Assembly (NCBI RefSeq): GCF_009745975.1 | Contig: NZ_WHOL01000100.1 | Location: 1-64,000 of the forward strand | DNA: 64,000 nucleotides | Origin: Actinokineospora pegani | GTDB taxonomy: Bacteria; Actinomycetota; Actinomycetes; Mycobacteriales; Pseudonocardiaceae | Reading direction: 5' to 3' | Part shown: positions 11,778 to 32,495 of the stretch, piece after piece | How the letters are laid out: each line of letters starts with the position of its first letter | Position numbering within the stretch: position 1 is the first letter of the stretch | Translations under genes and position numbers: made by a program | Notes under the pieces: generated by a model | What the model was told of the DNA's origin: nothing | Databases searched by the model: none | The model's input: the letters and a program-made list of their open reading frames with translations, nothing else

Positions 11778-11895
11778 GCGGCACCCCCCGGCCGGATGGC
11801 CGGGTGCCGCCAGGTCCCCGCCCGCTCGCCGGACTTGGCACCGGGGAAGGTGTGCCAAGGCCGGGGGCGAGCGGACCGAGGCCTGGCGGCACCCG
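11778..11895 (-). ncRNA. mraW RNA motif-like structured leader between mraZ and rsmH
   Basis: Seen: nested perfect inverted repeats, outer 14 bp (11801-11814 with 11882-11895), middle 9 bp (11822-11830 with 11866-11874) and apical 8 bp (11834-11841 with 11852-11859). The apical loop reads ACCUUCCCCG in the transcript. A conserved CUUCCCC terminal loop in the 5' UTR of mraW (rsmH) is my recollection of the described mraW RNA motif of actinobacteria. A second, mutually exclusive hairpin pairs 11778-11786 with 11802-11810. The loop is complementary to the rsmH Shine-Dalgarno GGGAAGG, so it probably controls rsmH translation or read-through into the operon. Confidence 0.78.
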
Positions 11896-11930
11896 TGTCC
11901 CCCTCGGTGCGGGCGCGCTCCGAGCCGTGC

Positions 11931-30018: not shown

Positions 30019-30816
30019 ATGCCCGAGGGTGACACCGTCTTCCGCACCGCCGCGCGACTGCGCGCGGCGCTGGTCGACCACGAGCTGGCCAAGGGCGAGC
30101 TGCGCCACCCGCGATTGTCCACTGTGGACCTCGCTGGCCGGGTGGCGGTCGGCGTGCGCAGCGTGGGCAAGCACCTGTTCATCCGGTTCGACCGCGACCT
30201 GAGCCTGCGCAGCCACCTGGGCATGGACGGCGCGTGGGACGTCTACGACCCGGGGGCGCGCTGGCGCAGGCCCGGGCACCAGGCGCGGGCGCTGCTGTCC
30301 ACGGCGCAGCGGCAGGCGGTGGGCTTCAACCTGCACGAGATGGCGCTCGTCCGCACGGACGAGGAGGACCGGCTCGTCGCGCACCTGGGTCCAGACCTGC
30401 TGGCCGCGGACTGGGGACCCGCGCTGGCGGCGGAGGCGAGCAGGCGGCTGGCCGAGTCGCCGGGGCGGGAGTTGGGGTTGGCGCTGCTCGACCAGCGGGT
30501 GATGGCGGGCGTGGGCAACGTGTTCAAGGCCGAGATCTGCCACATCCTGCGCGTCTCACCGTGGTCCCCGGTGTCCGCTGTGGACGTCGACGAGGTGGTG
30601 GCGCTGTCGCGGGACCTGTTGGAGCGCAACAAGACGCGGGTGGAGCGCTGCACGACCGGCGACGAGCGCCGGGGCAGGCGGTTGTGGGTCTACGGACGGC
30701 GACGCGAGGGCTGCCTGCGCTGCGGCGCGCGGGTGGTCGCGGGGACGCAGGGCCGGGACGTTCGCGAGCGGGTCGCCTACTACTGCCCTGTCTGCCAGCC
30801 GGGCCCCACGGGCTGA
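30019..30816 (+). CDS. Endonuclease VIII-like DNA glycosylase (Nei/Fpg family)
   Basis: Base-excision repair glycosylase/AP lyase of 265 residues. MPEGDTVFRTAARL is the Nei-type N-terminus (catalytic Pro2, Glu3), the helix-two-turn-helix region contains VMAGVGNVFKAEI, and the zinc finger is CLRCGARV followed by YYCPVCQ. The MPEGDTV start favours Nei (oxidised pyrimidines) over MutM. Confidence 0.92.
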   Translation: MPEGDTVFRTAARLRAALVDHELAKGELRHPRLSTVDLAGRVAVGVRSVGKHLFIRFDRDLSLRSHLGMDGAWDVYDPGARWRRPGHQARALLSTAQRQAVGFNLHEMALVRTDEEDRLVAHLGPDLLAADWGPALAAEASRRLAESPGRELGLALLDQRVMAGVGNVFKAEICHILRVSPWSPVSAVDVDEVVALSRDLLERNKTRVERCTTGDERRGRRLWVYGRRREGCLRCGARVVAGTQGRDVRERVAYYCPVCQPGPTG

Positions 30817-30829
30817 GCGGGCGGTCGGG

Positions 30830-31276
30830 TCAGCAGAACAGCAGGCCGCAGGGCTTGGTGGTGGTCGTCGTCGTGACCGGCGGAGGCGGCGGGGGTGGGG
30901 GCGGCGGGGGCGGCTGCTGCGTGGTGCTGCTGGTGGTGGTGACCGGCGGCGGGGGCTGCCTGGTCGGCTCCTCGACGGGCGGCGGGGGCGGCTGCGCCTC
31001 GGACCCCGCGGTGGTCCTCGGGGTCGACGTCGTGGACGCGGTCGTCGTGGTGCTGGACGGCACGAGCACCGACACCGAGGTCACCACCTCGACGCTCGTG
31101 CGCTCGGTCGCCGGGGCCGGGATGGGCTCCGGCACGGCCTCGGCGGCGGGCCGCGAGGCGGGGAGGTCGCCGGGCAGCGGCTCGGCCGCCACGCCCTCGT
31201 AGAACAGCGCCGCGGTCGTCGCGCCGACCACGGCGCCCAGGGCCAGCCGCCTCGACCTGCTCAGCGAACTCCGCAA
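30830..31276 (-). CDS. Secreted or membrane-anchored Pro/Thr-rich protein with Cys-containing C-terminus
   Basis: Family not recognised. From a TTG start (31276, with GGAGGGGG upstream) it is 148 residues: a basic SLSRSRRLAL start, a hydrophobic segment (about 8-24), then a Ser/Thr/Pro-rich tail with Pro runs of 5, 4 and 12 and Thr runs, ending KPCGLLFC. The topology suggests an exported tethered or glycosylated stalk. The upstream sequence has GGAT-N16-GGGTAT (31358-31333, minus), a weaker SigB-type promoter candidate. Starts further upstream are open in frame. Confidence 0.6.
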   Translation of the reverse strand: MRSSLSRSRRLALGAVVGATTAALFYEGVAAEPLPGDLPASRPAAEAVPEPIPAPATERTSVEVVTSVSVLVPSSTTTTASTTSTPRTTAGSEAQPPPPPVEEPTRQPPPPVTTTSSTTQQPPPPPPPPPPPPVTTTTTTKPCGLLFC

Positions 31277-31383
31277 CGACTGTCCCCCTCCAGGCAGCAC
31301 GGGCACTTGTGAGTGAAATTCATACACGTCACATACCCGGTTGATCACCCTAGCATCCACCGAATGGGTGACTGGAAAACACG

Positions 31384-31412
31384 TTGAAGCCTTCCGGGCG
31401 ACCGCCTACATT
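31384..31412 (+). promoter_or_regulatory. Sigma-A promoter of an orphan transcript
   Basis: TTGAAG (31384-31389), 17 bases, TACATT (31407-31412). Transcription would begin near 31419 and run away from the Pro/Thr-rich gene. No annotated-size gene lies downstream on this strand until pyrD, more than 1 kb away. Confidence 0.65.
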
Positions 31413-31444
31413 TGACGGCACACGAGAGAGGAGGTGGTCCAACA

Positions 31445-31483
31445 GTGATTTCCGCTTGGGCACGTGAGGTGACTGTCCGCTAA
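31445..31483 (+). CDS. Tiny ORF of 12 codons inside a hairpin
   Basis: GTG start with GAGAGGAGG about 10 bases upstream encodes MISAWAREVTVR and stops at TAA directly before the right arm of the 8-bp stem 31433-31440/31484-31491. The left arm overlaps the ribosome binding site. The arrangement resembles attenuation leaders, but no downstream target gene is present. Confidence 0.4.
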   Translation: MISAWAREVTVR

Positions 31484-31499
31484 GGACCACCCATCGAAG

Positions 31500-31547
31500 A
31501 TGGTTGCCGGCTCGCTCACGGCAGACACCGGTCACCCGGTGCCGTAG
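31500..31547 (+). CDS. Second tiny ORF of 15 codons
   Basis: ATG at 31500 encodes MVAGSLTADTGHPVP and stops with TAG. Its ATG is inside the CCATC-GAA-GATGG hairpin and its only upstream purine signal is weak (GAAG). It is reported because it follows the first tiny ORF in the same transcript; translation is unproven. Confidence 0.25.
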   Translation: MVAGSLTADTGHPVP

Positions 31548-31676
31548 GCGCGGCGTGGTCGGCGAATACCAGGCAGTCACCCGGCCCCCGGGCTCTCAGG
31601 ATGGTCCGTCCTGAGCCCTGGCCCGCACCCGCGGGACAGGGAGTCGCCCGGGGGCCGACCCATGCCCGGACCCGGG

Positions 31677-32495
31677 TCAGCCACTCTCGCCCTCCACCTG
31701 GCGCAGCTTGCGCCAGGCCAGTCCCGCGGCGCGCTCGGCCGCCTTGGCCTGGCGGCGGGCGGACTGCAACCGGCGGCGGGCGTCCAGTTCGGCGGTCTCG
31801 GCCTCGTCCAGCAGGGCGTTCAGCTCGCGGACCCGGTCCTCGGCCGCCGTCGTGGCCTCCTCGGCGTCGGCCACCGCGTGGTCGGCGCCCGCCCGGTCCG
31901 CCTCAGCCGCCTTGACCGCCGACCGCGCCTCCTTGACGGCGGCGCGGTCGACCGGCGGGGTCTTGGCACTGGGTCGCGTCTCGGGCCCGCGCTTGGCGGG
32001 GAGGGGCTTGGCGACGGTGAGACCGGGCCAGGACGGGGTGATCGCCAGGTCCCTGGCCGAGGTGACCTGGGCGTCCAGCAGCCGCTCGGTGGCGTCGGCG
32101 TCGGTGATGGCCGCGGTGAGCATGTCCTCCAGCTCCCGGGTGACCGCCTCGCTCGGGGACTCCCCCGCCGCCGCGGCGCGCACGAGGTCTCGGAGGAGCG
32201 CGGTGCGCTCGCGGGTCAGGGCGCGCAGGTCGGCCCCGGAGCCGTCGGTGTGCGCGGCGCGGAGGCGCTTGCCCAGGGAGACCAGGGAGTCGAGGGCCGC
32301 CTGGTCCTGGCGGACCAGGCGGTTGAGCAGCCAGGCCGAGGTGGTGGGTTTGGCCAGGCGTCTGATCTCGGCGGCGCGCGCGGTGTCGCCGTCCGCCTTC
32401 ACCGCCTTCGCCCAGGTGTCGCGGGCGGCGGTGAACTCCTCTCGGGGCAGCGCGTAGAGGTCCCGGGCGCTGTGGACGTCGGTCACGGGGTCCAT
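31677..32495 (-). CDS. Ala/Arg-rich coiled-coil protein of unknown function
   Basis: Family not recognised beyond resemblance to hypothetical actinobacterial proteins. The 272-residue product is almost wholly helical, with a basic linker (about 155-180) and a C-terminal heptad-rich coiled coil ([20 protein letters not shown] onward). The motif [18 protein letters not shown] near residue 46 looks conserved in character. No signal peptide or membrane segment. It is divergent from pyrD with 35 bp between the starts. Confidence 0.75.

Follow-up and report, generated by a model that had tools for sequence, protein, structure and literature searches.

SgrS/SgrT and RNAIII are dual-function small RNAs that also encode a peptide, and the peptide has a function. 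In infC, the AUU start codon is sensed by IF3. CTG, ATC and ATT starts are rare in ordinary genes. According to the available part of PMC3997798, strong SD sequences (STAB-SD) stabilise transcripts in Bacilli, even when no start codon follows. In leader-peptide attenuators and in the extended SD/uORF control of S. aureus (PMC13009471, available in part), RNA structure or expression is determined by translating a very short ORF, in cis on a gene.

We analysed a member of the Ms_IGR-5 RNA family that is comparable with each of these systems. Like SgrS/SgrT and RNAIII, it is a single small RNA that is structured and, as we infer, also translated; unlike them, the amino acids of its ORF are not conserved. 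Like the STAB-SD of Bacilli, it has a ribosome site of very high strength close to its 5' end, whereas a STAB-SD, as described in the same part of PMC3997798, needs no start codon and Ms_IGR-5 conserves start, frame and stop. The likeness to the S. aureus systems, as far as the accessible text of PMC13009471 describes them, extends to the extended SD pairing and the non-canonical start codons. However, both these systems and the attenuators act in cis on a gene, while the Ms_IGR-5 unit is free-standing. Rare start codons recall infC, as ATT or ATC occurs in a few Ms_IGR-5 copies.

The first-pass annotation of the window (the whole 64-kb stretch of DNA analysed) had proposed a free-standing structured transcription unit at this place, and the analysis supported this. 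The locus is not new. Positions 31420-31663 (+) belong to the catalogued RNA family Ms_IGR-5 (RF02471), for which a cmscan of the 64-kb window gave 96.8 bits, the gathering score being 45. The match spans the full model (1-184) and is the single one in its own genome. The window RNA folded alone was far more stable than its shuffles (z -4.39).

Ms_IGR-5 was first reported in M. smegmatis, where a transcript is described (PMC10454040); other sources report it as transcribed in two streptomycetes, S. lividans and S. avermitilis (PMC8079986, PMC8780764). The available portions of these three accounts describe no ORF, and the original report (Li et al.) may note one. For M. abscessus and M. smegmatis, a study that asks whether such RNAs code found ribosome-protected reads on the Ms_IGR-5 homologs (PMC4974804); it cautions that classical noncoding RNAs attract ribosome-protected reads too, and the accessible text gives no translation score for Ms_IGR-5. 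The main text of PMC5521070, as available, does not name the family. In the literature consulted, which comprised later sources than Li et al., in part, no function, helix A, pseudoknot K or 16S match was found for it. The family is widespread in the phylum, yet little more than a name in these sources.

Among 61 relatives, 48 had Ms_IGR-5, with every one of the 16 searched genomes of the genus among them. The family was also present in 249 of the 394 genomes sampled from the class and in 57 of the 296 sampled from the phylum. Of the 270 phylum-sample genomes that lie outside the class, 38 had a match; seven of these 38 passed the curated cut-off and 31 were below it. All 14 well-known control genomes lacked the family. 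We also searched with a pattern that contains no start codon but favours a stop-like triplet at its end. It matched 219 of 394 class genomes and 72 of 296 phylum-sample genomes, 55 of the 72 being outside the class, and the reversed pattern had no matches among the rows listed. All homologs were recruited by the family model, which imposes no reading frame, or by the derived pattern, and are biased to the consensus; their counts include related genomes and are not independent. Three pattern matches in viral contigs had no ribosome site and look like chance, and a 46-bit match (L260, genome G052) was discarded as spurious. Two matches were seen in single genomes for G654 (two loci), G143 and G398, while nearly all others listed have one.

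The promoter was located where the first-pass annotation had placed it, at 31384-31412 (+), with a -35 element TTGAAG (31384-31389), a 17-base spacer and a -10 element TACATT (31407-31412). From this sequence, transcription would start at about 31420. Support from the homologs was partial: 170 copies share a loose upstream consensus, and TANNNT lies within the tested upstream interval in 75 of them, with an upstream TTG in 58. A terminator-like stem (5' arm 31582-31593, 3' arm 31646-31657, +) is seen in the sequence and in the alignment, where all 11 pairs tested show double changes; it has no T run after it.

On comparative evidence, the 12-codon ORF of the first-pass annotation (GTG to TAA, 31445-31483, +) is real, far beyond chance. 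Its frame was open in 131 of 132 distinct class homologs, against 7 and 32 for the other two frames, and a strict start codon (ATG, GTG, TTG) fell within the tested interval in 130, against 6 and 3. The ORF persists in other classes of the phylum. Among 29 copies outside the class, the ORF frame was open in 29 (other frames 4 and 10), with a strict start in 16 (0 and 2) and a lenient start in 28 (5 and 5). Fifty distinct pattern-derived copies outside the class, which overlap the 29-copy set, gave 50 open frames (8 and 14), 31 strict starts (1 and 6) and 48 lenient starts (8 and 18), the lenient set being met fairly often by chance, as in the 18 of 50 for one wrong frame. In this pattern-derived set, genome G626 was scored as start-less because its TTG sits one base nearer than the tested interval. 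By the lenient set, the ORF was present in 139 of 140 class copies and in 29 of 30 outside the class.

In 130 distinct extracted copies, a set that includes the spurious L260 and lacks L055, which the script did not locate, the codon at the start place was TTG in 64, ATG in 34, GTG in 28, ATT in one and ATC in one. The two others were L245, which has one extra codon in frame, and L260. A stop was at codon 13 in 128 of the 130 copies, with TAG, TAA or TGA at the same place across copies. The distant copies L298 and L300 are shifted relative to the motif, and they still read TTG...TAG. As exceptions, L223 lost the stop codon and L263 has no acceptable start codon. Outside the class, the ORF is mostly 13-15 codons long, and CTG, ATT or ATC starts occur in 13 of 29 ORF-bearing copies (L265, L266, L271, L273, L274, L277, L296 and others). 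Since such starts are rare in ordinary genes, they hint at a link to initiation fidelity.

The structure was tested on an alignment (A1) of 33 natural copies. The 5' strand of helix A (31468-31477, +) extends from the third position of codon 8 through codon 11, and its 3' strand is at 31572-31581 (+). In the 33 sequences, 96.7% of the cells of this helix were paired, with double changes at six of its ten pairs, and RNAalifold recovered nine of the ten unprompted. The pseudoknot K joins strand K5 (31458-31461, +) in codons 5-6, which is GGGC here and GGAC in most copies, to strand K3 (GTCC, 31604-31607, +) at the top of the inner hairpin. K5 and K3 were paired in 33 of 33 sequences (100% of cells). 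In the window copy, two top pairs of the inner hairpin must open to free K3, and one K pair is G-U.

We then surveyed K in the copies other than those known from patterns alone. In 140 class copies, K5 was GGAC in 131 and altered in eight, whereas in L245 it was merely shifted by the extra codon. In L212, L282, L285, L288, L289 and L290, GGAU was matched by AUCC in the hairpin, and the pairing was held via G-U in L229 (GGAU/GUCC) and in the window copy (GGGC/GUCC). Outside the class, CGAC occurred with GUCG in L261, L272 and L275, and CGAU with GUCG in L262. K was altered and matched in 10 copies; as the six GGAU copies come from one taxonomic family, the independent K events are perhaps as few as two. 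The matching 4-mers were read at the inner hairpin, since the automatic loop search often chose other hairpins (e.g. in L289). Genome G087, with GAAC at the K place, may break the pairing.

For the structure as a whole, 73 cells were double-changed, where shuffling gave 15.2 on average, and pairing fell to 31-46% when the structure was slid along the alignment. The covariation check proposed by the first-pass annotation thus did find compensatory changes, in helix A and K, pairings that it had not seen. Helix P2, taken from the minimum-energy fold, pairs codon 12, the stop codon and the following bases (31478-31490, +) with 31555-31564 (+). Its support was weaker: 71.3% of cells were paired against 65.5% in shuffles, 18 cells were double-changed against 10.2, and four pairs had double changes, a number reached by 70 of 500 shuffles. 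A bulge AATNCCA (31565-31571, +) is conserved in A1. RNAalifold also gave a possible local hairpin GGUCC/GGAC around the start codon, which was ranked below K because one pair is broken in 3 of 33 sequences and it is never double-changed. In the structure line given by Rfam, codons 10-11 are the partner of the ribosome site, and neither helix A nor the pseudoknot appears. Helix A and K make up a revised Ms_IGR-5 structure, which eases mutational tests.

The codons under these helices bear on a working micropeptide, with MxxxRTREVAVR as its common class form, which the first-pass annotation had offered as one option. The ORF is conserved, and E8 and V9 were invariant in 123 of 123 distinct 12-codon ORFs; both are coded in fixed RNA bases. 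In the same 123 ORFs, codon 5 was AGG in 48, CGG in 39, TGG in 29 and GGG in seven, so that GG is fixed while the codon's first position is free and its amino acid varies (Arg, Trp or Gly). Codon 7 (R/C/S/G) behaves alike, and codon 12 is variable as well (R/S/G/H/A). Because the amino acids of codons 5 and 7 vary while the paired bases are fixed, the constraint is on the RNA bases, the start, the frame and the stop, not on the peptide. In addition, sequence and length change outside the class. The proposed search for conserved peptides therefore returned a kept ORF whose amino acids are not kept, and we regard a working micropeptide as very unlikely. By the two marks of a dual-function small RNA, Ms_IGR-5 has a conserved ORF that looks translated in comparison (frame open in 131 of 132), but selection on the peptide was not seen, as codons 5, 7 and 12 change freely and the helix bases stay fixed.

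The ribosome site at 31425-31440 (+) is complementary to the 16S 3' tail in 16 contiguous pairs (G-U allowed), the longest such match in the window; the next longest has 12. The duplex has a predicted energy of -27.9 kcal/mol; among the unrelated sites that were sampled in the window, the best reached -20.2. The 16S tail GGATCACCTCCTTTCT was confirmed in the genus members G004, G007 and G009 and matched exactly in 8 of 21 genomes searched; an exact copy was not found in the window's own draft genome. From 120 fetched loci, 111 were named; the site was the longest 16S match of its locus in 110 of these 111, and it had 15 or 16 pairs in 109. Across 168 distinct homologs, the 16S pairing was kept in 2677 of 2688 cells, and 10 of the 11 exceptions were at the outermost base. 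Exceptions aside, swaps between A and G are confined to positions opposite U, and swaps between C and U to positions opposite G; none of the eight positions that face C or A varies.

A match of this length could in itself be the function. As a ribosome decoy, the RNA would mainly capture 30S via the 16S match, with a poor start and a short ORF limiting the rest. The conservation of the match, its rank as the strongest in 64 kb and the frequent TTG starts, with CTG, ATT or ATC outside the class, agree with a decoy. However, a decoy has no need for a conserved stop, frame or length, or for an ORF that doubles as a strand of the core, and we consider it unlikely. The site also lies some 5 bases away from the transcript's inferred 5' end, which would suit a 5' stabiliser of the STAB-SD type, where the 30S sitting on the RNA would protect it from degradation and the trans-acting part would be the folded 3' half. 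The SD strength of such an element was found here (16 pairs, kept in 2677 of 2688 cells), and a raised half-life would be predicted. The conserved start, frame and stop are left unexplained by a stabiliser, which we judge quite improbable.

Our preferred reading, held with roughly even confidence, is that Ms_IGR-5 is a free-standing RNA acting as a ribosome-operated switch, by translation itself and not by the peptide. The site matching the last 16 bases of 16S rRNA would load a ribosome near the 5' end, and this ribosome would read the 12-codon ORF to its fixed stop. Together with the stop codon, codons 5-12 would double as the 5' strand of the core formed by K, helix A and P2. Because a ribosome on the ORF covers these strands, the core could close only when the ORF is free: it would be open while translation is ongoing and closed when initiation is blocked or scarce. 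The two states may differ in stability, or in exposing the GGCAGYCACC 3' strand and the GUCC loop to targets. Translation of the ORF in this species is probable, as is the mutual exclusion of translation and folding in the cell. The ribosome-protected reads in the two mycobacteria speak for this reading, subject to the caution given with them; the CTG, ATT or ATC starts and the many matches below the cut-off outside the class, as well as the two hairpin pairs that must open for K in the window copy and its G-U pair, speak against it. When a ribosome shadow over 31420-31489 was modelled, it cost 32 kcal/mol of predicted structure and left the terminator intact. A wider proposal is more tentative, and we incline somewhat against it: an RNA found in several classes of Actinomycetota would sense ribosome loading by 16S-tail pairing and by an ORF without a functional peptide serving as the moving strand of a pseudoknot, with translation setting its activity in trans. 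If the switch reading holds, a trans-acting RNA would answer to the act of translation and not to a peptide or ligand, actinobacteria would gain a direct readout of initiation capacity, and the ribosome footprints on Ms_IGR-5 would have a reason.

The coupling of translation and folding had already been suggested by the first-pass annotation, from a different pairing. The idea was supported, but family-wide it runs mainly via K (codons 5-6 with the terminator loop) and helix A (codons 8-11 with 31572-31581). The 8-bp stem on which it had been based pairs a left arm GGTGGTCC (31433-31440, +), overlapping the ribosome site, with a right arm GGACCACC (31484-31491, +), which shares the P2 5' strand and is thus an alternative to P2. 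Each of the 16 genus copies can form all eight pairs, as can 3 of the 13 copies from elsewhere in the taxonomic family; none of the 111 copies from the other families of the class can, and none of the 30 from outside the class. With shuffled targets, eight pairs were reached in 37 of 3400 trials. The minimum-energy fold lacks this stem, and the right arm pairs instead with GTGGTC at 31555-31560. As a family-wide element, the stem was rejected, since its 56.3% of paired cells did not exceed what shuffles gave, and it was kept as a genus feature only. One genus copy (L005) has lost the downstream arm of P2, where the best remaining downstream partner makes 5 of 7 pairs, and it retains GGACCACC; this suggests that, in the genus, the stem serves as a genuine additional lock. 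The second, 15-codon ORF of the first-pass annotation exists (31500-31547) but is not conserved: in 14 of the 16 genus copies, the frame that begins at the first ATGG past the stop runs for 8 to 128 codons, and the other two copies lack such an ATGG.

The surroundings of the RNA bear on the attenuation leader that the first-pass annotation had considered. An ORF, an alternative pairing and a terminator-like stem occur together here, as they would in one leader. In rough gene calls at 113 loci, the next downstream frame was on the same strand in 69 and on the opposite strand in 38, but these calls include frames overlapping the RNA, and such frames were therefore left out of a set of 20 picked loci. 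In that set, a downstream frame was called in 18, and 15 of the 18 were on the opposite strand, towards the RNA. The window is alike: the next downstream frame (31677-32495), without a Pfam match, is on the reverse strand and is followed by the dihydroorotate dehydrogenase gene pyrD. When we checked whether the element lies before a gene elsewhere, as had been proposed, the neighbours differed and the 20 loci had no constant downstream gene across lineages, which argues against a leader for one gene. They include an aminotransferase gene with a THAP4-like heme-binding gene, or else a FUR, GcvT-fold, pyridoxamine-phosphate oxidase or M24 peptidase gene. Moreover, the terminator hairpin of the window copy is predicted with or without a ribosome on the ORF, which also speaks against attenuation. 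We consider a leader for a downstream gene highly improbable.

A THAP4-like heme-binding gene adjoins the RNA in several distant lineages (L063, L078, L143 and L071), a call that rests on Pfam for L071 and was made by eye otherwise; this neighbourhood may be the ancestral site. On the upstream side in the window, there is an Fpg/Nei-type glycosylase gene (30019-30816), and then a divergent proline- and threonine-rich frame (30830-31360, -) that starts just upstream of the RNA's promoter. This frame ends in a cysteine motif, KPCGLLFC, and had no Pfam match for 30830-31282. Elsewhere in the window, an mraW RNA (RF01746) matched at 11792-11900 (-) with 61 bits against a cut-off of 50.
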